From positions 310,001-374,000 of the forward strand of contig JAACJP010000020.1 of assembly GCA_013368375.1 (NCBI GenBank): a stretch of 64,000 nucleotides of DNA, given 5' to 3'. The position numbers were made by a program, and so were the translations under genes. Under the pieces are notes generated by a model. The model did not search any database and was not told where the DNA came from. It saw only the letters and a list, made by a program, of their open reading frames with translations. Of this stretch, positions 3,866 through 29,521 are shown in pieces; the stretch's first letter is position 1, and every line of letters starts with the position of its first letter. This DNA comes from Tricholomella constricta. Its lineage: Eukaryota; Basidiomycota; Agaricomycetes; Agaricales; Lyophyllaceae.

Positions 3866-3873
3866 CACATACA

Positions 3874-4120
3874 GGCACTACAATGTAGCGTGTCCTACTG
3901 TCCAGCGGGGCCATACATGTAGCCGTATTGACGGCACCAGCGGGGCCGCTGGAGCGCCAGCGGGGCCACTACATGTAGCCGTGTTGCACGTTACCAGCGG
4001 GGTCTCTACATGTAGTCGTCTGGCACGGTTCCAGCGGCCCGCTGGTGCTACAGCAGGGCTAATATGCAGCGGGGTAGGGGGCCAGCGGGGGATTGCCCAC
4101 GTCTGCGGACCTCCGCGGGT
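3874..4120 (+). repeat. KDZ-A left terminal inverted repeat
   Basis: It begins GGCACTACAATGTAGCG and matches the reverse complement of 29267-29514 with only a few mismatches and a one-base indel. It contains three copies of the palindrome TACATGTA and several AGCGGGGCC blocks at about 60-bp spacing, which are plausible transposase-binding sites (inference). Confidence 0.9.
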
Positions 4121-4775
4121 TGCCTTTTTGGGGGCTAATACAGCGGGCCTATATGAGCCAGCGGGGGATTGCCCACGTCTGTGGACCTCCGCGGGTCGCC
4201 TTTCTGGGGGCTGATTGCCCACATCTGCGGACCTCTGCAGGTCTCCTTTGTGGGGGCTGGTATGGGGTATTGCCCACATCTGCGGACCTCCGCGGGTCAC
4301 CTTTTTGGGGGCTAATACAGCGGGCCTATATGAGCCAGCGGGGGATTGCCCACGTCTGTGGACCTCCGCGGGTCGCCTTTTTGGGGGCTGGTATGGGGCC
4401 CACATCTGCGGACCTCCGCGGGTCTCGTTGTTGGGGGCTGGTATTGCCCACGTCTGCGGACCTCCGCGGGTCGCCTTTTTGGGGGCTGGTATGGGGGATA
4501 CCCACGTCTGCGGACCTCCGTGGGTCACCTTTTTGGGGGCTGGTATGGGGGATTGCCCACATCTGCAGACCTCCGCGGGTCGCCTTTCTGGGGGCTGGCA
4601 TGGGGGATTGCCCACGTCTGCGGACCTCCGCGGGTCACCTTTTTGGGGGCTAATACAGCGGGCCTATATGGGCCAGCGGGGGATTCCCCACGTCTGCGGA
4701 CCTCCGCATGGGGGATTGCCCACGTCTGCGGACCTCCGCGGGTCGCCTTTTTGGGGGCTAATACAGCGGGCCTAT
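4083..4775 (+). repeat. Subterminal minisatellite of KDZ-A (left)
   Basis: About a dozen degenerate tandem copies of a roughly 55-60 bp unit: GATTGCCCACGTCTGCGG, then ACCTCCGCGGGTCGCC, then TTTTTGGGGGCTGGTATG. Some units are replaced by a variant carrying CTAATACAGCGGGCCTATAT. Three copies in inverted orientation lie next to the right TIR. Long ORFs read through it in several frames on both strands only because the unit lacks stops; none is a credible gene. Confidence 0.9.
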
Positions 4776-5271
4776 ACGTGCTGTCGGCAGCGGCAGAGGG
4801 TTTGCGGGGCATTACCCACGTCCGCAGATAAATATATGTCCGCGGGTTGTTGTCTGTGGCCTATAAGGGCTAAGGTAAAGGCTAGTGGGGCATTCCTCAT
4901 TGCCCGTGGGTTGTGCACGCTCTGACAGCGGGGAATTACGCCATGTCCGCGGCCCATGTCCGCAGCTCATTGTCTGTGGGGCATGTTACATGTAGCATGT
5001 CCAACAAGCCTTCTGGCAAGGGGCCTATATGCTGCTGTCTGAGGCAGCGGAGGCTTTCTTCACGCGTCCGCGGACCAATGCATAACGGGCTCATTTCTCA
5101 CCACCAAGTGAGTTGTCTTGGGCAGCGGCCAATACAAGCATACACTTTCTGCCAATACATGTCCGCGGTGTGGCCGCGGAGTCACACCGGTAAAATACAA
5201 TCAAAACAAATGTGGTGTATATATTGAAAACAAGGCAAATGTTGTACAAATCTGTCACTGATCTTCTACCA
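4776..5271. other. KDZ-A left subterminal region, non-coding
   Basis: About 500 bp between the minisatellite and the 3' end of gene A1. It holds dispersed GTCCGCGG motifs and CAGCGG blocks and no credible ORF. It probably acts as element end plus the 3' untranslated region of A1. Confidence 0.5.
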
Positions 5272-7344
5272 CTAATCATCCAAAATGTTGGCCGGAATGT
5301 GCGCAAATGAGGCGGCGGTGTATCGTCCGCGGGGTACTTGGACTGCAAGCTGCTCATTGAACTCATCGTCTGAAAACTGAAGTAAGCCTTCAAGCATTTC
5401 AATTGGCGGTCTGGCATTACGACGAGCCCGCTGCCTGCGGCCAGTGCGCCGTGTAACCCTAAGTTGCCCCTCCTCACCTGAGTCCTCGGACAGTGAGAGG
5501 ATGTCTGCCCCTTGCTCATCCGGGTCTTGCGTGCCCACCTCCGCGGGGCTGTCATCGTCTGAAAACTCGAGATCAGGGTCATGGAGATCTTCACTTTCCT
5601 CAACCCGATGGCCCGCGGAGCTGACTTCGTCGTCAGATGGCACATAATCTGGTGAGCCTGTGAGCTCAGACAGTAGAAATGATTAAGAATGCAATTTACC
5701 GCTCATCTCCGCAGACCTGGGCTCAGCATCGGAAGGAACATAGTCCGGGGTTGGATAACGCGGTGCTATTTGGGTTCAAACAGTCAGAAAATATACAGAG
5801 ACTGTAGAGGATGCAGCTTACCCGTCATCGCCGCGGGGTCCACCTCATCATCGGAAGGAATATACTCTGGGGTTGGATAACGCGGTGCTATTTGGGTTCA
5901 AACAGTCAGAAAATATATAGAGACTGTAGAGGATGCAGCTTACCCTTCATCTCCACGGGGTCCGCCTCATCATCGGAAGCAATATATTCCGGGGTTGGAT
6001 AACGCGGTGCTATTTGGGTTCAAACAGTCAGAAAATATACAGAGACTGTAGAGGATGCAGCTTACCCATCATCTCCGCAGGGTCCGCCTCATCATTGGAA
6101 GCAATATACTCCGGGGTTGGATAACGGGGTGCTATTTCACAGTCAGGAAATATGAGGAAACATGCAAATCCAGTGCTTACCACCCGTTGCAATGATTGCC
6201 TCCAGATCTACAGGGCTGTCCGCGGCGGGGCCCGCGGCATCCGTGGCTAAGACATTGCTTTGGTAGTAACTCACATATTCCCCACCATCATCAGCTCGGA
6301 GCGGTGGCCTGCAAAAGTGGTCAGGATACTCAGAAGGCAGGAGTTCCCTGGGCCAGCGGACATCATCTCCGAGTGCATCATACCTGTCTGATGGACTGGG
6401 ACTTGCGCTGTGTGAGTCGGAGTCGACCCCCTTTGCCTTCCCTGATGGAAGATCCCCACCAAAGTCGGATCCCAGTGGCCCTGCAGTTGCCTGGGGGTCA
6501 AAGATTCTGAAGAGCTCCCGAGGAAGCATTTCTCCCCTCCCTTGCATATCCGCGGGTTTGATCTGATTGTCCGGGGAGATTTCCTCCGCGGCCCCCGCCT
6601 TTTGAGCTGTGATCTCCTCCTCCGCCTTTAGAGCTGAAGCCTCAAAGATGGTGTTGAAGGTTGCGGCACGGTGGGTGGACTCGAAGGCCTGTGCTTCCAA
6701 AATGGATGCAAAGCCTTGCACACGTGTCCGGCACTGCTGCAGGGCTTGCGGACTTGCTTGTGTCCGCGGGACCCAAAGCGGAGGTGCTTCCTTCCGCTGA
6801 TGACGATGGAGGGCAAGGCATTCCTTCAGGGTAGAATGACTGAGCGGCTCCCGGGGCTCATTATCTTCATGCTCTAGCCACCAGTCACATGCATATTTTG
6901 TGACGGGTGCCGCGGGGTGTTCAAGCGGAAGGGCGGCGTCCAGAGCAAGGATCAGGGCATCCGAGAGCACCAGTGGGCCGTGAGATGTCTGTCCATAGAA
7001 GTGGCATGCAAGAAGTCGGAGGAGGTTTGGAACCTCACAGGGGGCCATCATGCTGGTTGCAGCACCTACATGGGCCAATGCAAAATCCTGTCACAAAAGA
7101 AACTGAGCTGCAATCTGATATTGATTTCACCGCGGGTACTTACAAGCTCCGCGGACAAGTGCTTCTGCATGGAAGCTCGAATTTTTGGATCATTCACTGC
7201 CGCATATTTGACCAGAGAGATATGCAACCTTGATTCGCAGTAAAAGAGGACCTCTTGCAAATGGATTGCGGCTCTGCCAAACGTCGGGAGTAAGAAAGTT
7301 TCGGCATCTATGGACAAGAGCGCGGGAAACGTGGGGGAAGCCAT
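5272..7344 (-). CDS. KDZ-A accessory gene A1, unknown, with amplified mini-exons
   Basis: I do not recognise this protein. The exon model is consistent in phase: 7344-7144; 7087-6181; four 66-nt exons at 6131-6066, 6009-5944, 5887-5822 and 5765-5700; last exon 5657-5272. The total is 1758 nt, 585 aa, with no stop. Introns are 42-56 nt with GTAAGY/GTAAAT donors and CAG/TAG acceptors. The first third is helical and starts MASPTFPALL; the middle is alanine/glutamate rich; each mini-exon encodes a 22-residue unit with core PRYPTPEYIPSDDE. The last exon continues the motif (PDYVPSDDE), then is very acidic, then basic (RRTGRRQRARR). Acidic, tandemly repeated PSDDE motifs suggest a protein-interaction tail (inference). 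It lies 262 bp downstream of, and on the same strand as, the transposase. Confidence 0.7.
5700..6131 (-). repeat. Four tandem 122-bp exon+intron units
   Basis: Each unit is one 66-nt exon plus a 56-nt intron (GTAAGC...CAAATAG). The exon starts and ends in phase 1, so each copy adds exactly 22 residues without frame change. The exon copies lie at 122-bp spacing; the first (6066-6131) has a slightly diverged upstream intron. Confidence 0.9.
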
Positions 7345-7606
7345 TGTGTTTGCCTTGAAGAGTCGATAAGAGATCGGATAAGGGGGAGAAAAGAGTAGTT
7401 GCCATAGTTACATAATTGACAGTTGCTTTCCCACCATCATGTGATTTGACTGCACACGTGCATCCTGCAACATCCACGGACATCATTAGGCAAAGCACAT
7501 CATGTTCAATGGGTCATGTCATCCGCGGACTTGGTTGTTGTCACCCCGCGGACACAATCATTGATCATTCCATTCCATTCTGCACGGCATTGATGATCAT
7601 TCCATT
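7345..7606. other. Spacer between transposase 3' end and gene A1
   Basis: 262 bp containing the transposase 3' untranslated region and presumably the A1 promoter. It contains two CCGCGG motifs and a short direct repeat around TGATCATTCCATTC. No ORF of interest is seen. Confidence 0.4.
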
Positions 7607-10600
7607 CTATGCAAGCAATGCTACATATGATTGATTTACTTCTTTAAATCGTTGCTCCGCCAACCAAGCAAGTTCCTTCCACATGGCTGTCTTCCGCCGT
7701 GCATATGCTGTCGGGCCCAGTTGTCCTGCAGCCGCGGCCTCCGCACCGCGCTCTATCCAGATCTGGGCCTGATGAAGGAAATATCGGGTGGTCCAAGTCA
7801 TTTCATATTGAACAAGAGTGAATTCTTCTGTCCATCGATCCTTTTGTGCCCTTGCCCTCAAGAAATGAACACGTTGAACTATTGGTATCATGTCAGTAAC
7901 AACTCCGCGGGGTTGACGCCAAAGAACATACACTCCAGCACAGCCTCCGGACTATCTGTCGCTTGACCAGGTATTTGCCAAATCCAAGAAAGACTGGTAC
8001 TTCGGATATCAGTTGAGCCCGGAGTGTTGGGATCCAGTATGGCGGTGCTCGATTTCACATGCTTCTTGTCAAGAATTTTGTACCTTTCCAGTGTGCCTTC
8101 ATCCGCACCCAGACGGACAAGCTTTGCTCTGCATTTGTCATACACCCGACAAAGGGTGGTGATTGTGTAATTGAGGGCGGTGATGTTACCCCGCGCGCGC
8201 ATCACCACACCCTTCCGCGGAGCAACTCGGATGACGTGTGAGTACAAAAATGATTTCTCCGCAATTGCATTGCGGAGGTTCTGCAGATGGCGCTCTGCTT
8301 GAACCTTGCGCAATGCAAGCTCAAGTTTAGCCAGATGTGTCTCAGTTTCCCCAGCCGAGGATGGCAGGCAAATAGGTGTCTGCTCTGGTGGTAGGGGTCC
8401 GTCTGTTGCACTGACAGGACGGGAGCGTGTTTGTGCTGGCACCGCGGCGTCTCCGGAGGGTGGCAGGTCCGCGGGGTTCTCGTCTAGGTTGTCAAAGGCT
8501 TCGACGTTCACTGGCACATCCTCCGCGGAGGCCGAAGGAATGAAGTTTATGCTCAGCTGTTTTGATGTGAACACATCAATTTGTGCACGTAGGCTTTGCC
8601 TTTCAGTTTCGACGGCCTTGCGGACATCTTCCCGCGGCTCGCGCACAAGTTGGCGGACTTTGTCTTGAAGGCCAATTCTAGATGGAAACTGTTCAGCTCC
8701 GGAAGACAAATAGAGATAAAATGTCTTACTGGCGCTCCTCAAGATCAAGGCCTGATTGTATCCACTCCTCTTCAGCTGTTGAGTGTTGCACAGGTCCATT
8801 GGAATCTCTCAGCTGCCCAATGTCCGCGGTGCACGCTTTGAGGATGTCCATAGCCTTGACATCATGAACCCTCCTCCGCTCGGCCTCCTGGATCTCCGCC
8901 TCCCAAGTTGTGGTTTGTGTGCGGCTTATGCCTGAAGCGACACCTTTGAAATATTCTTGAGCAGTCTCCAACATCTCTGTCGCCTTTTCGTATGTCCGAC
9001 ACAATGTGACCGCTACTCCGCGGCCGCGGACATGGTCAGTTATCATAACGGAATAGATGAAATTTTACTAACGCATCTGCAGGAGTTTCTTCCAGTTAGA
9101 ATCATTCATATGATCGTCCAGGATCTCCGCTCGGTGTGCCAATGTTGCGGTTCTGGTCATTGGTGACACAGTGTTCAACACGGCCCACAAACTCTCCAGA
9201 ATTTCACCCGCAACTATAGCAGCGCCTGGAATGAATGAAGTTGCAAAGCGGTTAAAGCAATCATCTTTGTGACCGTGAACATGGAGTAGTCCGATGGCCT
9301 GAGCAATAGTCATTCCTGGGGGGAGTAGGTGGCCGATGCGCTTCAGAAAGTGTACCATGTATTGGCAGGCAATATCATAGATCAATAACACCTGGTCAAT
9401 GTCTTCCACATTTGTTGTTTTAAGCGCCTGGAGGAATGCCCAGTCCACATTCTTTTGCTGCTCACCCGCGTGGAGGTCTGACAGGCTGTTGGGGGCAAAA
9501 CAACCATGCCGCGCACATGCAATGGCTACAATTCCTTTAACATCACAGGCTTTGGACACAAGCATTGCCTGCTCAACAGCGCGGAACTGATTCTCGCAAG
9601 GGGCTTTCTAAAATACAGGTTAGCACAGAACGCCGCGGGGTTGATGAACCCCGCTGATGAGCACCGTCCCGCGTTGTACACCGAACCCGCCCATAATATG
9701 GACATCAACCGCTGCGCCACGACGAACACGGTCCGGGATGCGACCAAAGCGCCGAACCGACCGACCGACAATGCGACCGACCGACCGACAATACGACCAA
9801 ATGACCGACGCACCGACCAAGAGACAGAGTAACTTGAAACGCCAGTTCTCCTCTCTAGGCGCACGGAGCACGGAACGCCGTATAACCTGTCAACGACCGC
9901 GCACGTTGGCATGCCAAGGTCTCAACCCGGCGACAACCAAACCCGATTTGAAATTATCATTGAAAACACCTTTGCCCAGCTATTCGCAGAGAGGATCCGG
10001 CCGTACCACGGAGTTCCGCACCCAAGAGCCACTACCGATCGCAAATCCACCACCGATCATACGTCCGACCCGACACCGCGAGCCGATCAAAAGCCCCTTT
10101 GCCGAGCCAGAGAGCGCCACACTCTCTGAAAAGCGTCGCGCGGTACTAAGCTTGGCGGCGCTTCTCCCAATAAACTAGTAAAACACCTGCCTCACCGGCT
10201 CGCGAGAGGCGAGTCGGTCGCATAGTATAAAAACGTACCCATGTACTACCTACTTCCCTTAGTGAATTACAGCCCGTATTTTCCCTCACTCTCAGAGTTA
10301 ATAGCTCAAAAACCGCCGTCTCTGTCGTCTCTGCATCGTTCTCATCGTATAAACCGTCGCCACCGTCGTAAAACCTCGTAACCGCCGTCTCTGTCGTCTC
10401 GTAACCGTCGTCCGAACCCGTGAGTTCTCCGTATTCGTCTCGCTCGTCTCGTTGTCGCACAACCGACACAAAAGTCGTGTTACCGACCCGTTCCACCTGT
10501 AAACGATTGTATTCTATCGCATCGCCGTCGGTTCGACTAATTACAAGTCGGATCGTCTTTACTTTCACCGAACCACCACTTTCAAACCCTGCACACTCGC

Positions 10601-13600
10601 GTGTTCGGGAACTTTTAACACTTCTCGCCCCCCCCATAGTTGTTAGTTGTTTTGTTGTTGTGCACAGCACCTACAGGCCTTCTAGCTCTATCATTCTGGA
10701 GCCCACCGCGAGGGTTTTAAAAGCCACCGCCGAACACGCAACCTCATTCCTCTTGTTCATAAAAACCTACGACTCGTCGACCATTCCGCCCGCAACCCGA
10801 CAAGAAGCTAAAGCCCGAACCCTCCGTGCCGAAATTCGCGCTGCTCTCGGACAAGTCGACACCGACTCAGAATCGCTCTCCCCGTTCTTCCGCTCAGTAA
10901 CCCCACACCGCGCGATCCATAACAACCTCAGCCCGCTCTTCTATAGCCCTTCGTCGACACTACCGTCGCCTACCCCGACCGATCAAACACCGCTCCCTGA
11001 ACCAACCGCGCAACCCGACCTAGCTTTCGACCCCTTTGCGTCGGAGCCTCCTACCACCGATCAAGGAGTTGAATTTAGACTCCCCTATCTATCGCCCGCG
11101 ACCCCAGAAATCTCAGATTCTTCTTCACCGTCGTATTCCCCCTCCCCGTCCCCTATCCCGAAACCAATACCATCTATCATGGCACAACCACCAATCATTA
11201 TAAAGCCGATGCCCGCACGCGGACAAAGCTCGGCGCCGACGTTCGTACCCGAACGCGCGCGTGAACTGCGCCGATATTTTTCGGACTTAAATCATCTCTT
11301 CATCGAGTGTAACGTCGTAGATGAGCAAGAAAAGAAAACGCACACTACGCGATACACCGACATCGATACCGCGGATCTGTGGGAGCAACTTGACGAATTC
11401 GCAGTCGGTACCACATACGACGACTGGCGAAAAGCGATAATGGCGCTTTACCCAGGCGCAAGCGAAGAAAGAAAGTATTCAATGGCCGACCTCGACTACC
11501 TGATCAGGGAACGACACCGACTCGGGATCCAGTCGAATAGTGACCTCGGGGAATATTACCGACAGTTCCTTTCTGTTACCCAGTTCCTTGTCAGCAAAAA
11601 CCGACTTTCGATAAACGAACGCGACCGCCAATTCCGTCGCGTGTTCCAGTCCGATCTATGGTCAAAGATCCATCGCAGGCTCGAGATCCTAAACCCGAAC
11701 CACCATCCCGACGACCCCTACGCCACGGAAACCGTTCGCGCTGCGGCGGAACATATCCTCCACGGAACAAACGCCGGCCAACGGCAGGAAGCGCCATCGA
11801 GCGCGCCCCCACAAATTACGATCGCGCCAAGCGGGTCGTTAACGGGCGCGACCAAGTCGCCTAACACGGGACAGCCCCTCAAGTTGGAAGAGCTCTACGA
11901 AAGAATCAACCTGTTGGAACAACATATCCAACGCTTAGGACAAGACAAAGGAGGCGACAGCGGCCGACCGAACCAGTCACCTAACGACAACTGCCTCTTT
12001 TGCGGTGGCGAAGGACATTATATCTCCAGCTGTCCCGTACATCAAGCATACGCGGGAGAAGGACGCTGCCGCAGGACCGACGACAACAAGATAGGCCTGC
12101 CAAGTGGTGCGCGCATACCAGTGGGGACCCCAGGTCGATACATAAAAGACAAACTGGACGAATGGCACAGGCGCAACCCCGGCCAAATGGCGACAGGACA
12201 GCTATCGGCAAACGCGAACCCGACCGAAAGCATGATGTTAGAGATACTACAATTTAACGACGTCACCGACCATGGCCTAAAAATCGAAGACCGCATGATT
12301 GTGTTAGAACGAGAACTCAACACGCTCCGCGCACGGAAGGAAGTGTTTGACGGCGTGGAGCTTATTAGTCGTGCACCTCAAAGGCGACCTGTCACGATCG
12401 AAACCGTTCAAGACCCCGACCAACCAGGGGTCGCATCGACCAACAAACCCGCACCCGCGTCGCAGCCTGCCCAAGACGCGACGGAAGGCAGAGCCAAGGC
12501 GCCCCCGCTACCATCCAACATACCGCTGATCCCTAGTGGAACAACCGACCCGTCGCTCGGTCTAGCAAGAAACGTACCCTGTACGATAGGCGACGTTACG
12601 CTCTACCTCCAGATGCACGTCATTCGCAACCCCGCATACGATATACTCCTCGGCCGTCCGTTCGACGTACTTACTTGTTCTAACGTAAAGACAAGATCCG
12701 CCGACGATACGATCATAACCATCACCGACCCAAACACTCGAGAGGTCATCGCAATACCGACCTTCGCGCGCGGGCAGCGTCGCCGCCCCAAGACCGACGT
12801 AAATTTTCATATACTCTCGAGGAAATAAGTCGAGATCACGGCGATCTTGCACTCCTCCTCGAGTACGACCCACTAAGCTATACCCCGACTGTCATTTCTT
12901 TCTGCGAACTACCGACCGAACTTAATAGCGACGCCACCTGCGACGCGCAACTAGCCTCACTCTACGTCGCGGCGTCCGAACTAACCACACCAGCAATCGC
13001 CGACCAATCCGTTAATACCAGCTCTACCCCTCTCGAGCGAGCGACCCTCTGCCCGATTTCACCAAACCACGAGCGCCACAGCGGGCGCTACACCCAAACT
13101 CCGACCAACACCGCAACCGACACCTTCGCTGTGAAAATCAAAGGCGTACAAACCAAAAAGAAGTACAAACCAGTGGCACAGAAAGTACGATCGATCGTAG
13201 CAAGTTGTCCCGACCACTTCCGAATCGAGCGCAAGATATTGGGCAACCCGCTCGCCGATATGCCGACCTTGCTCCCTAACCCGCCACCTTTCCAACCCAC
13301 CGGCCGCTACACTCTGGAGCGAAAAGAAGACCTAGACCGCGAACACCCGGATTTCCTAACGCCCGGCGAACGCGCTATTATGCACGACCTCATGTGTAAG
13401 CAGAACCTTGCTTTCGCATGGGACGACTCCGAACGCGGTAGTTTTCGGTCGGACTTCTTTCCCCCCATCGATATCCCCGTCGTCGCGCACACACCTTGGA
13501 TCGAACGCAATATCCCCATACCACCTGGCATCTACGACGAAGTTTGCGACATTATCAAAACTAAACTCGCCGCCGGCGTTTACGAACCATCCAACTCCAG

Positions 13601-22600: not shown

Positions 22601-23356
22601 CGGGGTCGCCGTGTCGACCCGCGGGGTCGTTTCGCTGCTCTGTGCAGTGGTTCTTCTGTTCTTCATCGTCGTATTTCACCTGGTAATTCTCCAACTGCTC
22701 CTGTTGTAGCTGTAGTGTATCACAGAGTGCTTTCTCGGAGGAGTGGTGGGGGACCAGCAAGTAGGTACCAACCTCCTGCAGCTGAGCTGCCTGGAAGTAT
22801 TGACCTGTCCAGAACTCAATGCGATGGAGAGGATTGTCCCTGTGAGTTGTCTGCATGCAACCCCGGCAGAGTATCCTGTCACTGAGACAGTCTCGACAAT
22901 GCCAACGTCCATAATTGCCCTTGGGACAATCAGAACATTGAGTTTGATTCTCAATGTACTCTCTCCCAAGTAGTCCCTCCAACAGTTCTGGAACGTGGTT
23001 CACAAATTCTTGAAGGTAATCACCTTGTGTCTGTGCTGTGATTCAGTTACATGTACACACTACTTCAAAGAACAATTCACCTTGCCCCGTTTGGGGGCCA
23101 CCTCATCAGTGGTGTCATTCAGGTCTGCTGAGTGAATGTCCGAATGCTCAAAGGGTTGGACATGGGTCTGCACACCCTGAGGGACAGATGTAGCAGGGTC
23201 CGGTGACCTCTTGCGCAAGGGGACACTCCTGGATTCCACGATGTCACCCCTCTGGGTATGCCTGACTGTTGTCTCGACATCCATGGCATATGAGCGAGAA
23301 CTTTCCTTAAGGACTTCATCCTTCTTGCGACGTGTGCGCTTTACTGCACGCAACAT
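7607..23356 (-). CDS. KDZ-family transposase with CxC2 domain (KDZ-A), intact
   Basis: Seven exons agree in phase: 23356-23081, 23030-21922, 21872-21710, 9607-9073, 9012-8730, 8677-7932, 7878-7607. Together they are 3384 nt, 1127 aa, with no stop. Exon 2 carries the CxC2 cysteine cluster that accompanies KDZ transposases (CSDCPKGNYGRWHCRDC...CRGCMQTTH..NPLHRIEFW). The RNase-H-fold catalytic core follows: first acid in VADGNFKADH, second in YDIACQYMVHF, the C/H segment ARHGCFAP and HVHGHKDDC, and the glutamate in GEILESLWAVLN followed by RAEILDDHMNDSNWKK. The C-terminal half is helical. Gypsy-3 sits in intron 3 (donor 21709, acceptor 9608; about 82 nt without the insertion). The start is the ATG at 23356, facing gene A3. 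It should move KDZ-A. Confidence 0.88.
9651..9654. repeat. Gypsy-3 target-site duplication (left)
   Basis: CCGC directly precedes the 5' LTR and is repeated at 21671-21674 directly after the 3' LTR. Four bases is short, but Gypsy-type integrases make 4-6 bp duplications, and the intron reads correctly once the insert is removed. Confidence 0.6.
9655..10693 (+). repeat. Gypsy-3 5' LTR
   Basis: 1039 bp, TGATGAGCACC...CTAGCTCTATCA. It contains CCGACCGACCGACAAT microsatellite and CGTCGTCTC-rich tracts. It matches 20632-21670 except for single-base changes such as TATGG/TACGG and ATTGT/ATCGT. Confidence 0.95.
10694..10714 (+). promoter_or_regulatory. Candidate primer-binding site of Gypsy-3
   Basis: Directly after the LTR is TTC and then TGGAGCCCACCGCGAGGG. 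A TGG within five bases of the LTR end fits priming by the CCA 3' end of a tRNA. The tRNA species was not identified. Confidence 0.45.
11179..12828 (+). CDS. gag: Gypsy-3 Gag (capsid, zinc knuckle, partial protease)
   Basis: 549 aa from the first ATG after the LTR in this frame; the frame is open further upstream without a start. Contents: helical capsid-like region (about aa 20-190, ERARELRRYFSDLNHLF...WRKAIMALYPG), a CCHC knuckle (CLFCGGEGHYISSC), a proline-rich linker, and near the C-terminus the second half of a retropepsin (LYLQMHVIRNPAYDILLGRPFDVL). The Asp-Ser/Thr/Gly-Gly active-site half that should precede it is not visible; the segment runs straight from a linker (PLIPSGTTDPSLGLARNV) into the second half, as if a block were deleted. 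The stop at 12826-12828 is bypassed by a -1 frameshift signal (see 12801-12863). Confidence 0.8.
   Translation: MAQPPIIIKPMPARGQSSAPTFVPERARELRRYFSDLNHLFIECNVVDEQEKKTHTTRYTDIDTADLWEQLDEFAVGTTYDDWRKAIMALYPGASEERKYSMADLDYLIRERHRLGIQSNSDLGEYYRQFLSVTQFLVSKNRLSINERDRQFRRVFQSDLWSKIHRRLEILNPNHHPDDPYATETVRAAAEHILHGTNAGQRQEAPSSAPPQITIAPSGSLTGATKSPNTGQPLKLEELYERINLLEQHIQRLGQDKGGDSGRPNQSPNDNCLFCGGEGHYISSCPVHQAYAGEGRCRRTDDNKIGLPSGARIPVGTPGRYIKDKLDEWHRRNPGQMATGQLSANANPTESMMLEILQFNDVTDHGLKIEDRMIVLERELNTLRARKEVFDGVELISRAPQRRPVTIETVQDPDQPGVASTNKPAPASQPAQDATEGRAKAPPLPSNIPLIPSGTTDPSLGLARNVPCTIGDVTLYLQMHVIRNPAYDILLGRPFDVLTCSNVKTRSADDTIITITDPNTREVIAIPTFARGQRRRPKTDVNFHILSRK
12801..12863 (+). promoter_or_regulatory. 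-1 ribosomal frameshift signal between gag and pol
   Basis: Slippery heptamer A AAT TTT (12801-12807) is in the correct gag phase (GTA AAT TTT). An 8-nt spacer follows, then an 8-bp perfect stem CTCGAGGA (12816-12823) pairing with TCCTCGAG (12856-12863), with a small inner hairpin AGATC/GATCT (12833-12847). The -1 frame is open across the gag stop straight into pol. Confidence 0.75.
12807..16571 (+). CDS. pol: Gypsy-3 Pol (RT, RNase H, integrase)
   Basis: 1254 codons open from the frameshift site to the stop at 16571. Domains: linker ending in KYKPVAQKVRSI and PPPFQPTGRYTLER; reverse transcriptase with PFGALRLVTLPMGWTNS and catalytic YIDD (LPYIDDAAI; the usual form is YLDD); RNase H region (DDPVILAVDTSHIAVGFYL); integrase zinc finger (VHDNLGHKRFY...CHICQIQQ); catalytic core with D in YIDTMHLPPS, D in IVTDNGPAF and E 35 residues later in NGLVERSH. 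There is no chromodomain; the end is acidic (DDSESEEEQN). The fold matches Agaricomycete elements with SALTY-like pol. A purine tract identical to the 3' PPT lies at 14991-15007 between RNase H and integrase. No lesions were seen. Confidence 0.88.
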   Translation, partial: SYTLEEISRDHGDLALLLEYDPLSYTPTVISFCELPTELNSDATCDAQLASLYVAASELTTPAIADQSVNTSSTPLERATLCPISPNHERHSGRYTQTPTNTATDTFAVKIKGVQTKKKYKPVAQKVRSIVASCPDHFRIERKILGNPLADMPTLLPNPPPFQPTGRYTLERKEDLDREHPDFLTPGERAIMHDLMCKQNLAFAWDDSERGSFRSDFFPPIDIPVVAHTPWIERNIPIPPGIYDEVCDIIKTKLAAGVYEPSNSSYRSRWFCTLKKNGKFRLVHSLEPLNRVTIRHSGVTPIPDHVAEQFAGRICGAMLDLFVGYDERLIAPSSRDLTTFQTPFGALRLVTLPMGWTNSVPIFHDDVTHILQPEIPDYTLPYIDDAAIKGPATWYPDPVTGLPKTHPDNADVRFAIWEFFNDVNRILQRMKYCGGTFSGKKLVLCAPQFKVLGHVCTPDGRIPDVDRLALLRNWKSCATLSELRAFLGTVGVLRIFVKNFAHRAHHLVKLTRKDAVFEFGPDQVAAQRDIVEAIAEAKPLVPIDYASDDPVILAVDTSHIAVGFYLCQADPVDRKRRRYNRFGSITLNDRESRFSQPKLEFYGLFRALGALRLYVIGVRNLVVEVDARYIKGMLSNPDIQPSASINRWIVSVLMFHFELVHVKGTFHGPDGLSRRPRQPDDPTDNWDAEEADFEDWVDRMQGLMHIIQPLPQPPSLLHVRQIFAMAQISSKEEMVAVYTDAVPPDSATHELATDSPRQPRIRTDDDTGITDPNANSTDMSYDDVPRTDAAKAQDHRIDAVRQWLADLERPEGMSDDQYATFIRYATGFFLDGTRLWRRDSQGAHKLVARPSARLEILRSVHDNLGHKRFYATRATLLERFWWPNVRADVVWFVQTCHICQIQQTTKVLIPPVVATPAPLFAKMYIDTMHLPPSNGFKYIVQGRCSLIHFPEWRALRKENSRTLGDWMYEDIICRWGGLREIVTDNGPAFIKAAEHLTKKYHIHNIRISGYNSRANGLVERSHFDVRQSLFKAADGNESKWSQSAYSVFWAERVTIRKRMGCSPYYAATGTQPLLPLDIVEATYLQPPPDSILSSTDLLTRRAIALQKRATDLERLHSDVYAARRQAAIRFELKHARTLRDYNFKRGDLVLMRNTKIEKSLNRKMRSRYLGPLVVISRNRGGAYILCELDGTVLHRPVAAFRLTPYFARNNILLPGSALDIDTKRLRELEATTITDDEDRPEVVGDDSESEEEQN
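14991..15007 (+). promoter_or_regulatory. Candidate central polypurine tract of Gypsy-3
   Basis: TCAAGTAAGGAGGAGAT inside pol shares its first 16 bases exactly with the tract next to the 3' LTR (20616-20631) and with a third copy at 18895-18910. Its position near the centre of the element, between RNase H and integrase, matches the central PPT of lentiviruses and Ty1. Confidence 0.65.
16572..16947. other. Gypsy-3 pol 3' spacer
   Basis: About 375 bp between the pol stop and the 3' end of the first antisense gene. It includes a TATA-like run (taatatatattatat, about 16812-16826) and no credible ORF. It would hold the convergent 3' ends of pol and the antisense gene. Confidence 0.4.
16948..18720 (-). 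CDS. Gypsy-3 antisense gene 1 (Cys6 cluster plus coiled coil)
   Basis: This gene runs opposite to gag-pol. Exon 1 (18720 to about 18452) encodes a helical N-terminus (MTALATDFPTVV...WQGEDDALAAVWATI...DKEWKARFANL). A basic/low-complexity middle follows, then KRKRE and acidic EDESIVEIPEEE, then after an intron (donor GTGAGTCG near 17757, acceptor ...TTCGGAG) a cluster CDRCTSAGVAC...CALCKIHAKKC. Its spacing C-x2-C-x6-C-x8-C-x2-C-x6-C satisfies the fungal Zn(II)2Cys6 pattern. The C-terminal part is helical (FLRALVQEAQLLESRQEI) and ends in an acidic tail. It is paralogous to the gene at 19169-20492, with an intron at the same place before the cluster. Middle exon limits are approximate. Role unknown; a DNA-binding regulator or structural accessory protein is possible (inference). 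Confidence 0.7.
18895..18910 (+). repeat. Internal duplicate of the Gypsy-3 polypurine tract
   Basis: TCAAGTAAGGAGGAGA preceded by GACCGACTGAGGGCAGTCGG closely matches the sequence that precedes the 3' LTR (20590-20631, GACCGACTGAGGACAGTCGG...). It sits 5' of antisense gene 1, so the gene plus tract appears duplicated as one module. Confidence 0.8.
18930..19060. repeat. Two tandem copies of a ~57-bp CCGAC-rich unit
   Basis: The unit ACACCGCCGACAAAACCGAC plus CGAACCGACCTGCGCCAC occurs twice in direct orientation (about 18950-19050), between the two antisense genes. It is low-complexity sequence in the style of the LTR. Confidence 0.75.
19169..20492 (-). CDS. Gypsy-3 antisense gene 2, paralogue of gene 1
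   Basis: Same architecture and order as antisense gene 1. Exon 1 runs from the ATG at 20492 (or 20471): VDLQRTLRFLERDWDEWQ...WMWSGEEEALSNIWSTIASDPEWSERFADL. An intron follows with a perfect TACTAAC branch site and GCTAG acceptor near 20150-20162. Exon 2 is acidic and helical (RLEEFKKEYPEHYTRSEA). A 52-nt intron with GTAAGT donor ends at CTAG, and exon 3 starts at CDRCVSYGLDC...CAVCEIQSRQC, with the same Cys spacing as gene 1 (C-x2-C-x6-C-x8-C-x2-C-x6-C). A second Cys/His patch (CSVEGHFCDAC) and a helical segment (FLRTLVQEIQVLESRQEI) follow. Canonical introns on the minus strand show that this strand is the coding one. Function unknown. Confidence 0.72.
20616..20631 (+). promoter_or_regulatory. 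Gypsy-3 3' polypurine tract
   Basis: TCAAGTAAGGAGGAGA immediately precedes the 3' LTR, the position required for plus-strand priming. Confidence 0.85.
20632..21670 (+). repeat. Gypsy-3 3' LTR
   Basis: 1039 bp and virtually identical to 9655-10693, ending CTAGCTCTATCA. It is followed by CCGC, the target duplication, and then by the rest of the KDZ-A transposase intron. Confidence 0.95.
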
Positions 23357-23612
23357 GGTGGGTAAGGATGAGATCTGATTTGGTGGAAAAATCAGAACCT
23401 GTCTACTGATGTATCACTGATTACTCTCGGACATGTCCTCATGGTTGTGCAAAGGTCAGCTGCACTCATAATCGGGGCCATCGATGTACCCGTGCCTCAT
23501 ATTACCCAAACTGGAAACTTCCTTGCCAAATGCGGGTACTGTGGGACAACTGTCAAGCGTGGAGTTCAACACTTTTAGACCCAAATAGGAAATTTTGTAA
23601 CGGAGCTCCACC
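23357..23612. promoter_or_regulatory. Divergent promoter region, transposase / gene A3
   Basis: The 256 bp between the start codons of the transposase (minus) and gene A3 (plus) must hold both promoters. No clear TATA box is evident, and CCGCGG is notably absent here although it is dense on either side. Confidence 0.5.
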
Positions 23613-25457
23613 ATGTCCGAAAATATTTTCACACCGGAAACAGTCACACATGCCCCCGCGGCCCTGAAGAAGACAAGTAAGGGGCCCCGTTACCCGGCTG
23701 ACGAGCGCGCCGTCCTCAACAAGTACCGAGAGGAGTACCGGTCAGAGTCGGACCAGAAAAAAAGGGCGGCCATTTTCAAGGACAAAGTCTTGGTTGATAT
23801 TTATAACTTCTGGAAGGCAAAGGGAACAGAGCCCAAGACCGCAAAGAAGTCTGCGTCAGCTACCATGGTCCGTCAGGCTAGAGTGTGTATCTCTGTGTCA
23901 TCACACTGATCAGCATACAGAAACTGGCAGATTGGGTGAGGAACAACTGGAGGCCCTACCCAGCATATAACCAGTCATCGGCGACTCCGCGGGCTTGTGC
24001 TGATGTCCGCCGCGGAGCAGTCATGACAGCATTGCAGCAAATGCAGGAGCAATCAGCAAAACTTTCATTGATACCTTTCCGCACATGGTAAAGGACTTCA
24101 AAAGAAAGCTTATGGACTATGTCCTTTCACTCCAAGAATCCATTGCACCAGACCCCCTGCATCAGACTGATACAGTAATTCAGCCACGTCCAGATCTACA
24201 GCTGGATCAACAAAATGATGGTTTTCCAATTCTACCGGAGTTGGTAGAAGGTGTGCAACAGAGCAAAGATGACCTTGAGCTTCTGGTCCGCGCATTCCTG
24301 AAACATCATTACAGTACGTGATAATTCTTTGATATCATATCAGACCTATCCTAATTTCCTTACAGAACTAGCATCGGGACACCTCTACTCATCCCCTCCA
24401 TTCACTTCCATCAAAGCGGACAATAGAATGTTCATCCCCGCGGAGTACGTTCCCACGGACATCCAAATTCAAGACCCACGGAACCTCCGACTACATGAAC
24501 TCCGGGAGTTGCTCGACTTCTGGCGAGAGCGCCAGAAGAGGCTTGGACCCTCAGAGACCTTTCGCTGGTCCAGTTACTTGAACAAGAAAAAGGAGAGAAC
24601 GGAGGCGGTCTACGGGGCGCACAAGGACGAGGAAGCTTTGGCTGCCGCGGCAGCAGCAAAGAAAGCAAGGCGGAAGAGGGGCAAAAAAAAAAGCACCAGC
24701 TCCGGACCCCTTAGAAAGCCTTATTCCAATGTCGGACCTGGAAGGCAGTGACGGCGAACACAGCAGTCCAGCACCAGATGAAAACCAACATCTGACACCC
24801 CTGGGATTCAATCCATTACCGGATAACGAACCCCGCGGACCACCCGATGAACTTGCAGAGCACTATCAGAATCAATCACAAGATAATGACCCTCACGGAC
24901 TACCCAACACACCCCGCGGAGCACCCATCAAACCCCGCGGAGCACCCAACGAACCCTGCGGAGCACCCAACGAACCCAACGAACCTGGAGAACAGACTGA
25001 CGAATATGGTCCCCATGACCGTCTTGAACCAGACCCCATGACTAATCAAAGCCTGGTCAGAATTGACGAAGCAACAATGCACCGCTTGAATGCCCACGGA
25101 CTTCCGACACAGGCACCCATCAATGGGCCTGGTGAAGGGCTGCCAGAGTACATGGTGCTGGCAACTGCAATGCAGCTCCTCAACGAGGTAACTCCGCCGC
25201 CCAACACTCCTACTCCCTCTCCGCCGAATACACCAACTCCGCCCACACCTCCGGTTACACGCAAGCGCAAGCAGGTTGAAGGACAGATGACTAAGCGAAA
25301 GAAATCAAAGCAGGATTTACTGCTTGCGGAGGCCGCGGACTTTGGTGTCAGTACCACCAGGGGTAGCCGCACACGCAATCAAACCATGACCCGAGCTGCA
25401 ACATCCAAGTCCGCAGGGCCTAGCAACAGGTCTAAAAGAAGCACAAGGCGCCGCTAG
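23613..25457 (+). CDS. KDZ-A accessory gene A3, unknown, possible frameshift in A10
   Basis: I do not recognise it. Starts at the ATG 23613 (MSENIFTPETV). Exon 1 is charged and helical (PADERAVLNKYREEYRSESDQKKRAAIFKD). Exon 2 starts near 23919 (KLADWVRNNWRPYPAYNQ). A further exon carries FIDTFPHMVKDFKRKLMDYV. An intron lies at 24315-24366 (donor GTACGT, acceptor TTACAG), then ELASGHLYSSPPF and a lysine-rich stretch (KKARRKRGKKK) with an NLS look. The reading frame changes at a run of ten A residues (about 24683-24692): read as nine A, it continues as APAPDPLESLIPMSDLEGSDGE into a proline-rich tail with repeats PRGAP(I/N)(K/E)P and a basic, NLS-like end (RSKRSTRRR). Either one base is extra, or two proteins are made. 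Exon limits before 24100 are approximate. Confidence 0.6.
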
Positions 25458-25550
25458 TTTACTGTTTTCTCATCAGTTATAATTGTTGACAGCTCATTGG
25501 TAATTCATTGATCACAATGTTCAAAAAAATTGTTTTATTGTATATACTTT

Positions 25551-27936
25551 TCAATAATGTGGCAGTATATACACTACAAGTTGCCAGTGCTTTGCTGTCA
25601 TACATATTTGTTCAGTAAAGAAAACAGATATTTGAAGGAAGTCCGCGGGGTGTCCAAAATAAAGCAAGTCCGCGGGGTGTTCGGAAAGTCCAAGCCACCT
25701 AGCTGAATTGTGCTTTTTGGAAGGCCCTCCACCCTCATCCGCTGCCTTGCGTTTTGTGCCTCGCGAACCTTCCTCTGGAGCAGGTGACCCCTCAGGACTG
25801 AGCCGCGGAGACGGAGTGGCAGGGCCCGCGGGGCCCGCGGATCCTTGTGGGGTGGGCGGAGTCACCTGGAGGGTGGGTCCAGCTGGGGTGGACGCAGGCA
25901 CAGTCGGGCTCCAGGCCGGTGGTGAAGGGGTGGCGAGAGCGGGGGTGGGCACAGGGGTGGTGGGCACAGGGGTGGCTGGAGGTGGAGGTGGAGGGGTGGC
26001 TGGAGGTGGAGGGGTGGTGGGCAAGGGGGGCAGAGGGGTGGAGGGAGGCGGAGTTCCCTCAGCCGCTGACTGGGGTGAAGACGGAGGCAAAGGCGGATCT
26101 TGAGCGGACTCTGCGGGCCTGCGCGGAGGAGGCGGAGTTGCTTGCGGAGGTGCTTGCAAATCCATGTTCTCTATGTTGAGGGCGGCCATGTCCGCAAACA
26201 GCTCCGCGGCCAGCTCCGTGGGAAGAGGTGCTTGCGCCTCTAGCATCCGCACACGCTTCTGCAGGCCCTGCACCTCGACTCCCTGACGTTGCGCCTCACC
26301 CAATACCTCCCTCCCTGCCAACTCCAGCTCCCGCTGTGCAAGTACAAGCTCTGCAGCCCTAAGGTTGATGAGCTCGCACTGCATTGACCGCCTCTTGTCC
26401 CGCTTCAGCACCAATTGCACGCTGACCTCCAGGTCTGACATCCGCTCCCGCAAAGTGGTATTTTCTGCGGTCAAGGTCGCAAGCCTGGTCAGGATCGCCG
26501 CGGGGTCAAAGTCCGCGGGGAGCGCGGCAGCGGACGGGAAGTGGGTGGCTACAATGGTCTTCTTTAGCAAAGTGATGAAGAGAAGAAAAAAGACTTACAA
26601 GGCCCCGCGGGGTTGAAGTCCGCGGAGGGCGCGGCAGCGGACCGGGGGTGAGTGGCTACAAGTATATTTATTAGCAAAGTGATAAAAAAATGGATGGGAA
26701 CTTACAGGGACCCGCGATGTTCTCCTTTGCCCGCTTGACCTTCGTTGGCTTTGGCCCCTTCCTCGGAATGCCTGGTGAGAAAACACAACTCTGCTTTGCA
26801 AACTTGCATGGAAAGCAGGCTGTTGCCTTCCCACCCTGTATCCTGCACGCGAGATTCCTCATTGTGCATCGTACACAGGCGGGGTCATAGTTTCCGTGGT
26901 CGACCGCGGACATCGCTCGGAATTCGTTGTCGCTGTCGTCCCAGTCCAAGTCCTGGAACGACTGCACCACCTTGCCCTTTCCCTTGTCTGCGGCGGAAGG
27001 CAAGGGGTCCGCCGCGCGGATACGGTGCTGTTCTGTTGTGTTGGGAAAGATCAGTGTCAGACTAGGTAATGCAAAAATGAAAAACTCACCGGGTTGAACG
27101 CCCGCGGCCTTGACCCCCGCGGACCCATCCACTTCCCTCTGCTTTCCCTTCTCCTTTCTTCTCCTCTCTGCCTTCTCCGCCTTCAACGCCACGGCCCTCG
27201 CTTTTGCTTCCACAGCCCTCACCTCTGCGGCCCTTGCCTCCGCCTCTCTCTCTTTGGCAGCCCTCCTCCGGGCGGCCTTCTCTGCTCTCGCTCTCTCCAT
27301 CTCCTCCCTCTCCCTCTTCTCCTTTTCCTCCCTCTCTATTTCTTCCTCTAACCTCTGCTCCTCAGCCCATTTGGCCTTCCTCTTCTCCCGCCTTGCCTCC
27401 GCGGCCTTCATCTCCTCTGCCATTTCCGCAGCCTTTCTCCTTGCCAGTTCCATCGCCCGTTTCCTTGCCTCCTCGGCCTCCGCGACCCTTGCTGCCCACT
27501 CTGTGGCGGCCCTTGACGACTCCGCCTCCGCAGCACTCGCTGCCGGCTCCGCGGCACCCGCTGCTGACCCCGCGGCACCTGCTGCCGGCCCCGCGGACCC
27601 CGTTGTCTGCTGTTGGCCCTGGTGAGCACGCACAATGTCCAGAAGTTTACCCATTAGCTCCTTCGTGTTTTCCCCATGCGAGATGTCCTGGATTAGCCGG
27701 ATTGTGGCAGCAAGGAGGGAGGCGTGCCTGGCCCGCATAACCTCCGGGGTGGTGCTGGCCTTGACCCGCGGCCATAATTTTTTCTTATTTTCTAATGGTC
27801 AGTGATTGGTTAAGATAGAGAAAAAAAAATGTACCGCTGTTTTTTTGTACAGCGCAGTCAGCGCCGGGACATCGCCGTTTTCGACGGCCTTGACAATGTC
27901 GTTGTCGATCGCGTTCAGAGCCGTGATGTCGGACAT
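25551..27936 (-). CDS. KDZ-A accessory gene A4: coiled coil, Cys6 cluster, Pro-rich tail
   Basis: Exon 1 is 27936-27835 (MSDITALNAIDNDIVKAVENGD). Exon 2 starts at 27783 with a helical segment, an Ala-rich stretch, and a long, highly charged single alpha helix (about 130 residues of Glu/Arg/Lys/Ala). A probable 60-nt intron with GTGAGT donor lies near 27090-27030. Next comes CVRCTMRNLAC...CFPCKFAKQSC, spacing C-x2-C-x6-C-x9-C-x2-C-x6-C, again within the Zn(II)2Cys6 pattern, followed by a basic patch (PRKGPKPTKVKRAKE). A 57-nt exon (about 26604-26660) is a copy of the start of the following exon. The last exon is a heptad-like coiled coil (LTRLATLTAENTTLRERMSDL), then a roughly 130-aa proline-rich tail. 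Cys6 followed by a coiled coil is the Gal4-type order; a DNA-binding role is inference. Confidence 0.65.
26490..26665 (-). repeat. Duplicated 57-nt mini-exon and intron in gene A4
   Basis: The 57-nt exon (CCACTCACCCCCGG...GGGGCCTT) and the first part of the next exon (CCACCCACTTCCCG...) are near copies, each preceded by a similar intron ending TTTGCTAA...TTGTAG. Donor and acceptor phases match (phase 1), so the duplication adds 19 residues in frame. Confidence 0.8.
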
Positions 27937-28141
27937 TTTGATGCGCGGAGGGCGGTGTTGCGGACTTAGATTTGGGAGTGGTGGCGGGCAGATATGGGAG
28001 GGCAGAAGAGTTCCGCAGGAGTTGAAAATTCTCAACATGGTCACGTGCAACATCCAATTATATCTCTCTTACTAATTGTTCTCCGTTGTTCCAAAAGATT
28101 CTTATCACGTGCTCTGATTGAAGATCAACCAGACCATAAAG

Positions 28142-28750
28142 ATGGCCTTCTTCAACAGACACAGACCCATACAAATGAGCGCCATCAACCCATCGGAAAG
28201 TAACTCCGCGGACACCGCGGACATGCGACCTACTCCGCTCCGCGGATATGTTGTGATCAATTCCAATGGCCGGGAGTACCTTGTGCCACAACATCTGGCT
28301 GCCATAACGGAGCAGAAGCTCCTAACTGAAGCTTTGAAGGAAAAAGAGCTGAAGAAGGCCAAGGCTGATCCTGGAGTAAGTGATGGAATTGCTGCTCATT
28401 CATTGAAGGGATAGCTAACATAAATTGAGTAGCCAGTGAAGCACAAAGACGGAGGGTTTCTGACTCTAGCCTCTGGTTCTGTTATAATCCCCGCGGACCC
28501 CGTAAGTCTTTTTATGCACACCTTGTTTACAAAACTAACAGTCATTTATTAGCCAATGACACAGCGAGAGCTCCTTGGTCTCCACGCTGAAATCAAAGCT
28601 TTCCAGCAACTTCACAATGTATCCTATGCTTCCGCGGCTCGTCAGCTGTATCTGGCAGAGGTCGCCAAACTTAACAGCCTGCAAGTTGCTCTCGGTGCCT
28701 TCCGTACCATCCGCAATGAAATTGATGGGCCTCAAATGGGTGATACGTAG
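28142..28750 (+). CDS. KDZ-A accessory gene A5, small unknown protein
   Basis: Three exons join in phase: 28142-28375, 28433-28501 (69 nt), 28553-28750, giving 166 aa. Introns have GTAAGT donors, CTAACA branch sites and TAG acceptors. The middle exon is 69 nt in phase 0 and ends in CCCGCGGACCCC. The protein has a polar N-terminus, a central lysine/glutamate-rich helix (LTEALKEKELKKAKAD) and a C-terminal helix (LHAEIKAFQQLHNVSYASAARQLYLAEVAKL). No signal peptide, membrane segment or known motif. It lies next to the right end of the element, transcribed towards it. The start at 28142 is the first ATG after in-frame upstream sequence; an internal ATG at MSAINP is an alternative. Confidence 0.6.
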
Positions 28751-29104
28751 AGGACATAGTTTGGTACACTTCTGCACTTCTGTCATTAAGTACTTGTGCA
28801 ACAATGTGTGATTACATGCAATTAATTACATTACTGTGATTAGTAATCCCCATAGACGGAGGCCCGCGGACATGTATTGATCCGCGGATGTTTGTATGGC
28901 CTGAGGCCCGCTGCGGTGCTGCGGGTGCCTCCAGAGACAACGACCCGCAGACATGTATGTCTCCGCGGACGTGCCTGCCCAGGCCCGCTGCAGTGCTGGG
29001 AGTGCACCACAAACTACGACATGTATTGAACTGCGGACGTCGGTAATGGCCCGGCCAGGCCCGCTGCGGTGCCGGGGGTGCCTCTAGAGAATGACCCGCA
29101 AACC
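28751..29104. other. KDZ-A right subterminal region, non-coding
   Basis: About 350 bp with three or four degenerate copies of a motif GGCCCGCTGCGGTGC...GACATGTAT, plus CCGCGGA sites. No gene is seen. Confidence 0.5.
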
Positions 29105-29300
29105 CTCACCCTGCCGCCGCTGACAGCACCATATAGGCCCGCTGTATTAGCCCCCAAAAAGGCGACCCGCGGAGGTCCGCAGATGTGGGCAATATCAGCC
29201 CCCAACAACGAGACCCGCGGAGGTCCGCAGATCTGGGCATCCCCCATACCAGCCCCCAAAAACAAGACCCGCGGAGGTCCGCAGACGTGGGCAATCCCTC
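29105..29300 (-). repeat. Subterminal minisatellite of KDZ-A (right)
   Basis: Three copies of the unit found at 4083-4775, in inverted orientation (CCCCCAAAAAGGCGACCCGC then GGAGGTCCGCAG). It merges with the inner edge of the right TIR. Confidence 0.9.
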
Positions 29301-29514
29301 GCTGGCCCCCTACCCCGCTGCATATTAGCCCTGCTGTAGCACCAGCGGGGCCGCTGGAACCGTGCCAGACGACTACATGTAGAGACCCCGCTGGTACCGT
29401 GCAACACGGCTACATGTAGTGGCCCCGCTGGCGCTCCAGCGGCCCCGCTGGTGCCGTCAATACGGCTACATGTATGGCCCCGCTGGACAGTAGGACACGC
29501 TACATTGTAGTGCC
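29267..29514 (-). repeat. KDZ-A right terminal inverted repeat
   Basis: Inverted match to 3874-4120, ending CGCTACATTGTAGTGCC. It is followed by CCTACCT and the flanking 8-bp repeat at 29522-29529. Confidence 0.9.
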
Positions 29515-29521
29515 CCTACCT

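Follow-up and report, generated by a model that had tools for sequence, protein, structure and literature searches.

Why should a transposon carry the same six-letter word about once every 160 letters, when a retroelement nested inside it hardly contains the word at all? The question is raised by KDZ-A, an element in a 64,000-nucleotide stretch of the genome of the basidiomycete Tricholomella constricta (contig JAACJP010000020.1, positions 310,001 to 374,000; the whole stretch is called the window here). The word CCGCGG occurs 99 times in the window, and 86 of these sites lie in the 13,640 bp of KDZ-A that remain when the nested retroelement, Gypsy-3, is set aside (6.3/kb), whereas Gypsy-3 has three in 12,016 bp. 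On balance, we lean towards reading the sites as a self-recognition array that spans the body of elements of this KDZ lineage and would be read by a Zn2Cys6-like protein encoded by the element itself.

Density of CCGCGG within and outside KDZ-A

CCGCGG was the most over-represented 6-mer of KDZ-A (z about 42–44), and it also ranked first in the eight other copies of the element that were ranked. Dinucleotide-preserving shuffles of KDZ-A minus Gypsy-3 gave 3.5±1.9 sites (maximum 10, n=1000) and 500-bp-block shuffles gave 3.7±1.8 (maximum 10, n=300), compared with the 86 observed; synonymous-codon shuffles of 13 open reading frame (ORF) pieces comprising 2,873 codons gave 7.0±2.6 (maximum 18, n=1000), compared with 50 in the real pieces. 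The dinucleotide and codon controls by which the first-pass annotation proposed to judge the over-representation thus fell far below the observed counts, and its estimates by eye of about 80, 3, 5 and 0 sites in KDZ-A, Gypsy-3, the flanking Gypsy-1 sequence and the element KDZ-C were close to the actual 86, 3, 5 and 0. Twelve other all-G+C 6-mers occurred only 1–18 times each in KDZ-A. Across the 44.09 Mb of the genome, CCGCGG was found 12,158 times (0.276/kb), about as often as its reversed word GGCGCC (12,474), so there is no genome-wide enrichment; the density in KDZ-A is 22 times the genome mean.

The features concerned are listed below. The ORF pieces run from stop to stop without being gene models, with slight overlaps between a few of them.

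3866..29522, no strand: KDZ-A element, with CA..TG termini, a 7-bp target duplication and terminal inverted repeats
4113..9638, no strand: left part of KDZ-A, 39 CCGCGG (6.7/kb)
9071..9607, minus strand: KDZ transposase exon (PF18758, E 4.5e-36)
9655..21670, no strand: Gypsy-3, a long terminal repeat (LTR) retroelement nested in KDZ-A (LTRs 9655-10693 and 20632-21670; 3 CCGCGG)
21671..29274, no strand: right part of KDZ-A, 47 CCGCGG (6.0/kb)
21921..23042, minus strand: CxC2 exon of the transposase (PF18803, E 4.3e-19)
22619..23656, no strand: longest CCGCGG-free stretch of KDZ-A, covering the beginning of the transposase gene and the intergenic region of the divergent pair
23063..23413, minus strand: probable 5' exon of the transposase gene, from an ORF reading
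23601..25454, plus strand: second gene, from ORF pieces, with no Pfam family
25554..26594, minus strand: accessory ORF, 8 CCGCGG
26674..27798, minus strand: Zn2Cys6-like ORF, candidate reader of CCGCGG, with the cysteine cluster in 10/10 copies compared
26785..26877, minus strand: Zn2Cys6-like cluster C-x2-C-x6-C-x9-C-x2-C-K-x2-K-x2-C, its halves apparently swapped relative to Gal4/PF00172
43856..50759, no strand: KDZ-C, which served as negative control, with 0 CCGCGG and without a match to the Zn2Cys6-like protein in tblastn
51180-53658: KDZ-B remnant, its KDZ exon 78 % identical to that of KDZ-A (3 CCGCGG in about 2.5 kb)

Thirty-nine of the sites lay in positions 3866-9654 and 47 in 21671-29521, compared with none in 1-3865 and 10 in 29522-64000, five of the latter in 29522-43855. 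Within KDZ-A the density was 5.7/kb in ORF-like sequence (52 of the 86 sites fell within ORFs) and 7.4/kb elsewhere, with a coefficient of variation of spacing of about 1.0 and no concentration at the ends, the subterminal repeats being rich in CCGCGG as well. Gypsy-3 itself had landed within one of the CCGCGG sites of KDZ-A, duplicating the 4 bp CCGC (9647-9654 and 21671-21678), and the target site was intact in two Gypsy-3-free copies (C11b and C3). The site-free stretch of about 1 kb at 22619-23656 was mirrored in other copies by a gap of 1.0–1.5 kb, apparently at the same place; it is not claimed as a promoter feature, as the related locus L003 has a site (position 2206) between its divergent-gene matches.

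The ORFs showed the imprint of the motif. Thirty-seven of the 52 ORF sites were in the frame NCC-GCG-GNN, which reads x-Ala-x (p=5e-8). Alanine was encoded by GCG in 42 of 71 cases where CCGCGG can form, compared with 44 of 242 elsewhere (6/58, 20/73 and 18/111 in the three non-site contexts), and the proline, serine or threonine codon preceding an alanine was NCC in 32 of 45 cases at possible sites, compared with 136 of 543. These figures show that the KDZ-A ORFs accommodate CCGCGG through synonymous codon choice and a preferred frame.

Preservation of the sites among copies and families

A DNA search of the same genome returned 172 matches to KDZ-A, from which nine copies were retrieved whole or nearly so. 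They held 35–94 CCGCGG each within the spans set for them; seven had 76–94, one of these (C64) with an uncertain span, its left end not having been found and its start having been placed by hand. The other two, C29 and C41, had 35 and 45 sites in spans that are uncertain and include site-free LTR-element sequence, the second end match being in the same orientation as the first and a further 17 sites lying beyond each span. In the six copies whose ends are inverted (C11b, C17, C1, C31, C51 and C3), 76–94 sites lay inside the element, compared with three in 17.6 kb of flank. Among 30 loci of the DNA search, 29 had 3.2–7.6 sites/kb with flanks included and one (L031) had 1.2/kb, while a decayed copy at C1:46-61 kb retained eight sites in 3.5 kb and nine in 4.0 kb (about 2.3/kb). 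Copies of the family lacking the enrichment, which the first-pass annotation had said would overturn its claim, were thus not what was found. DNA of C1, C31 and C64 that could not be aligned to KDZ-A, some of which encodes related proteins, had 5.4, 6.1 and 6.6 CCGCGG/kb.

Clusters of three sites were found 119 times in the genome, compared with nine for the reversed pattern. Among those listed (50 distinct places on contigs C1 to C27, some overlapping in short tandem repeats), 48 fell inside, or no more than about 8 kb away from, a match to KDZ or to the Zn2Cys6-like protein, the exceptions being C1:553449 and C12:152650. Twenty-nine KDZ-A-like KDZ matches were picked by hand on score and profile range, 19 of them on contigs covered by the cluster list. 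Of these, 10 of the 13 accompanied by a Zn2Cys6-like match in the same element had a triple-site cluster, compared with none of the six without (p=0.003), which may be fragments. Nine KDZ-A-like KDZ matches have no Zn2Cys6-like match close by (C20:69850, C12:933796, C31:130209, C50:30784, C11:734618, C9:1053204, C9:1070730, C5:1595014 and C59:89638). A sister KDZ family, with 38–62 % protein identity, was represented by loci L003 and L004, which had 12 and 15 CCGCGG in 3 kb, a richness that is partly ascertainment because both were found by searching for the motif. A sister-type gene chosen by its Zn2Cys6-like match and not by the motif (L056, which its KDZ match and layout, and no direct alignment, assign to the sister family) had 13 sites in 1.2 kb.

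Preservation was set against the decay of CpG in the element. Outside CCGCGG sites, the ratio of observed to expected CpG was 0.64 in KDZ-A, compared with 1.4 in Gypsy-3. Among three recent copies, 2.5 % of CpG dinucleotides had changed (about 1.3 % per base), compared with 0.22 % of other bases, so that CpGs decay about six times faster, which suggests that the CpGs of KDZ-A are methylated. In this recent trio the CpGs of the sites changed as often as the rest (13/486, 2.7 %, compared with 40/1569, 2.5 %; ratio 1.05, p=0.87), and in seven recent pairs of 97–99.9 % identity the ratio of site-CpG to other-CpG change was 0.70–1.03, the value used for C41–C29 being that of the KDZ part (1.03) and not that of the whole spans (2.5). 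In ten older pairs of intact lineages, which share copies and are not independent, the same ratio was 0.08–0.50 and aligned CCGCGG sites were retained at 0.77–0.95, compared with 0.56–0.75 for control all-GC 6-mers with two CpGs; even in the weakest pair the figures were 0.77 and 0.67. Where sites differed, CpG transitions accounted for 93 of 107 single-mismatch cases, and 58 of 202 unshared sites lay opposite a gap. Equal decay in recent copies together with preservation between older lineages points to selection and not to mutational protection, and the pattern matches that expected if selection acts on lineages still transposing while single insertions drift.

In the recent trio, 12 of the 13 changes at site CpGs were at the outer cytosine and one at the inner (p=0.003 for equal odds), although CpG contexts other than CCGCGG showed little difference. 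The bias possibly reflects unequal methylation or a footprint.

Site geometry and the candidate reader

Read as an everted pair of CCG and CGG, the motif occurred 86 times in KDZ-A at spacing 0 and 0–12 times at each of spacings 1–12. Its flanks followed a rule that differed between the families. KDZ-A copies favoured Y-CCGCGG-R, with T as the 5' base in 0.40–0.54 of sites and A in 0.03–0.05, and the pyrimidine preference held equally for sites in ORFs, elsewhere in the interior and in subterminal positions; the sister family favoured R-CCGCGG-Y, with G in 0.70 and A in 0.19 (40 sites, those of L003 and L004 not being independent as the two loci are 89 % alike). The difference between families had a Fisher p of 2e-23 (rounded counts). 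T/A was the commonest flank in KDZ-A, as in TCCGCGGA, and GCCGCGGC is the contrasting form. Without a protein that reads the sequence, it is difficult to see why a shared core should have opposite flanks, and we infer that the flanking base would set family specificity, Y..R in KDZ-A and R..Y in its sister.

The likelier candidate for such a reader is the Zn2Cys6-like protein and not the CxC2 part of the transposase. The first-pass annotation had proposed dispersed binding sites for CxC2 or its partners; the idea of binding sites is in part borne out, with a partner that the annotation had not named taking the place of CxC2. The ORF has an N-terminal part that looks charged and coiled-coil-like by eye, followed by a C-terminal cysteine cluster whose six cysteines were kept in 10 of 10 copies, although protein identity was 39–45 % in the distant ones. 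The CX2CX6C...CX2CX6C spacing of PF00172 was present and invariant in five aligned sequences. The two halves do not follow the canonical order: the first aligned to positions 18-33 of the PF00172 profile in KDZ-A and 18-34 in L056, and the second half of L056 aligned to positions 1-15, so the cluster is apparently a swapped-order variant relative to Gal4. The sister-type piece of L056 (52 residues) reached 21.5 bits against a PF00172 cut-off of 21, and the second half differed between the families (CK.AKQSC in KDZ-A, CRDKKRHC in the sister). Forty-two matches to relatives of the protein accompany the family in the genome. All 20 PDB matches of its model in Foldseek (E up to 10) were fungal zinc-cluster DNA-binding domains, namely Pho7, Leu3, Gal4, Put3, Ppr1, Hap1 and AlcR, with one match labelled just as a DNA-binding protein. 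Zinc-cluster factors bind CGG repeats, and the site of yeast Pdr1 (PDRE) is TCCGCGGA, according to the part of PMC8211738 that deals with it. The protein is thus predicted to bind CCGCGG, the everted, zero-spaced pair, as a dimer.

The proposed array weighed against its rivals

The proposal that the array marks the element as self can be given a mechanism. The Zn2Cys6-like protein would coat the whole element, exons included; the coating would exclude silencing methylation or heterochromatin, so that transcription and mobilization become possible; and the signal of specificity would be the density of sites over about 14 kb, no individual site being decisive. Anti-silencing appears the most likely use of the array because KDZ-A is evidently decaying at CpG and because the VANC proteins of Arabidopsis VANDAL elements set a precedent for dense, family-specific motifs. 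Motif binding and loss of methylation have been demonstrated for VANC, and related VANDAL families have diverged motifs (PMC5735166 and PMC10398659, in the portions bearing on this). KDZ-A resembles that system in its element-encoded accessory protein, its dense short family motif and the divergence of motifs in relatives. It differs in that VANC motifs are found chiefly in tandem repeats outside coding sequence, whereas the CCGCGG sites of KDZ-A are scattered through ORFs, with codon choice in their favour, even if some of them do fall in subterminal repeats; the host kingdom and transposon class are also different, and binding in KDZ-A is deduced from sequence. In its fullest form, to which we would give somewhat less than an even chance, the proposal is that of an identity code over the entire body, exons included, in which a CCGCGG core with family-specific flanks, read by a co-evolving swapped-half Zn2Cys6 protein, would survive CpG deamination, recode the element's own proteins, set the element apart from host DNA and from retroelements nested in it, and let it evade silencing.

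Several observations weigh against such a protein-read array, besides the ascertainment of the two sister loci. All the copy comparisons lie within one genome, and the co-variation of flanks with the Zn2Cys6-like protein covers two families, too few for proof. Methylated CpGs, if present, could hinder CGG-binding proteins, and at certain spacings KDZ-A has up to 16 inverted and up to 30 direct pairs of CCG and CGG. CGCGGC ranks above CCGCGG in the sister loci, because of the purine flank preference of that family. The KDZ-A cluster piece (50 residues) scored 17.0 bits against the PF00172 cut-off of 21 and the whole ORF had an E value of 0.45, while its second half searched alone against the profile matched nothing. 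The AlphaFold model of 91 residues was weak (mean predicted local distance difference test score 58, with 68–79 over the cluster), the best Foldseek E value was 0.075 with none under 0.001, and a sequence search of the PDB returned Gal4 only, at E 0.87–8.7. No relatives were found at E≤0.001 among 7,991 scored candidates from a database of 5.8 billion proteins whose fungal share is not known. Many of the 42 matches within the genome carry in-frame stops, from introns or from decay, and co-occurrence alone cannot pick out the reader because the family has the transposase just as universally as the Zn2Cys6-like protein.

This last point lends itself to an explanation that we regard as unlikely but not idle, that the KDZ transposase, through CxC2 or another part, or a partner reads the sites, folding the 14-kb element and joining its ends, so that the sites would be a body-wide counterpart of the subterminal TnpA sites of En/Spm. 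In its favour, the family has transposase and sites throughout, CxC2 forms a cysteine cluster and the subterminal repeats are rich in sites; against this, the sites show no crowding towards the ends, a TET/JBP-adjacent KDZ element with a CxC2-like region had none in the 2.5 kb read, and the repeated word of KDZ-C, TGGTCTTGCCC/GGGCAAGACCA, stays in subterminal tandem arrays (17 places, at 44623-44813 and 49203-49796 only). Zinc-cluster proteins are mostly transcription factors, and the Zn2Cys6-like protein might accordingly be an activator of its own element, the sites being promoter or enhancer elements that have spread. The site type agrees with this, being that described in the relevant part of PMC8211738, and yet autoregulation seems quite improbable: a few promoter sites would do, 52 of the 86 sites are in ORFs, and the region between the transposase and second genes lies within the longest site-free stretch, which together disfavour a promoter-only role.

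Explanations that look to the DNA itself fare worse than protein reading. A concentrated CpG target for TET/JBP enzymes or for a host methyltransferase reading CCGCGG, as the first-pass annotation had also suggested, is very unlikely. The genome has 23 Tet_JBP matches at E≤0.001 (on contigs C5, C10, C14, C22, C27, C29, C33, C42, C50, C51, C56 and C67), six of them over the cut-off, and by our own count 13 lie no further than about 9 kb from KDZ matches that do not belong to the KDZ-A family; none of the 23, however, is inside KDZ-A of the window or the fetched copies, a weak match (E 5.9e-4) lying just beyond copy C51, and the cluster list, whose contigs include five TET-KDZ places, shows a triple-site cluster at none of them. 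The proposed TET/JBP link of KDZ-A is therefore without support, as is a special role of the sites as CpG targets, the site CpGs decaying like the other CpGs of the element. KDZ elements with and without TET coexist in this one genome. Mutational survival, in which CCGCGG would be shielded from methylation or deamination while a methylated element loses its other CpGs, is in keeping with the low CpG ratio of KDZ-A relative to Gypsy-3 and with the preponderance of CpG transitions, but it is highly unlikely: it is largely contradicted by the near-equal decay in recent copies, and it cannot explain a 22-fold density, sites in lineage-specific DNA or opposite flanks in two families. As for a by-product of alanine-rich tripeptides or of G+C composition, which the x-Ala-x frame of most ORF sites might suggest, the dinucleotide and synonymous-codon shuffles and the counts of other all-G+C 6-mers refute it, GCG and NCC are favoured where a site results and density is similar outside ORFs, leaving it next to no probability. 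By contrast, the claim of the first-pass annotation that the sites have a role at the DNA level, whatever their strand or coding context, is supported by the preservation between lineages, the bending of codon choice and the equal density in unalignable DNA.

KDZ-A among known systems

KDZ-A is a KDZ transposon, having a PF18758 domain and an N-terminal cysteine cluster. Its termini, 5'-CACATACAGG...CCCCTACCTG-3', are of the CA..TG type, it is flanked by a 7-bp duplication, GTCATGT (3859-3865 and 29523-29529), and its inverted repeats of 167 bp are 99 % identical (3874-4040 and 29348-29514). The start of 3866 given in the first-pass annotation stands and the right end moves one base further, to 29522. 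The words ACATGTAG/CTACATGT are repeated in the terminal repeats (3915-4015 and 29373-29473), with 13 occurrences in the window, 11 in KDZ-A (10 of them in the terminal repeats) and 19 in copy C1, and are a possible transposase site. The second gene matched no Pfam family, though it is conserved in all compared copies (59–100 % identity) and in the sister family (41–58 %), while the accessory ORF had matches in C11b and C17 and none in C1, C31, C41, C29 or C64.

In En/Spm, the element-encoded DNA-binding protein TnpA has many short subterminal sites; those sites are subterminal only, whereas CCGCGG in KDZ-A is body-wide. The sites of Pdr1 are in promoters of host genes and its zinc-cluster halves are in canonical order, which sets them apart from the body-wide sites and swapped halves of KDZ-A. 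What the PDRE of Pdr1/Pdr3 shares with KDZ-A is the core, everted CCG/CGG with zero spacing (PMC8211738, same part). Kyakuja elements have a KDZ transposase, CA..TG ends and a 7-bp target duplication, and two Laccaria families of them lack inverted repeats, as reported in a section of PMC12730594. KDZ-A shares with the TET-bearing Kyakuja described there the transposase, the ends, the duplication and a presumed escape from methylation, and differs in having inverted repeats and a Zn2Cys6-like gene and no TET/JBP found; because of its 167-bp inverted repeats it is classed as a KDZ element with Kyakuja-like ends and not as Kyakuja proper.

CCGCGG had no occurrences in the KDZ literature found, and no exon-spanning transposon code was met with in the literature, judged from titles and the openings of abstracts and short of a full search. 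We know of no earlier transposon self-recognition code that runs through exons and shapes the proteins. If the proposal is true, it would represent another origin of sequence-specific transposon self-recognition, in fungi. It would make testable the long-standing question of how elements tell self from other DNA, as well as whether the density of sites is by itself enough to determine chromatin state, with the code-free KDZ elements of the same genome, some of them beside TET/JBP genes, as built-in controls.

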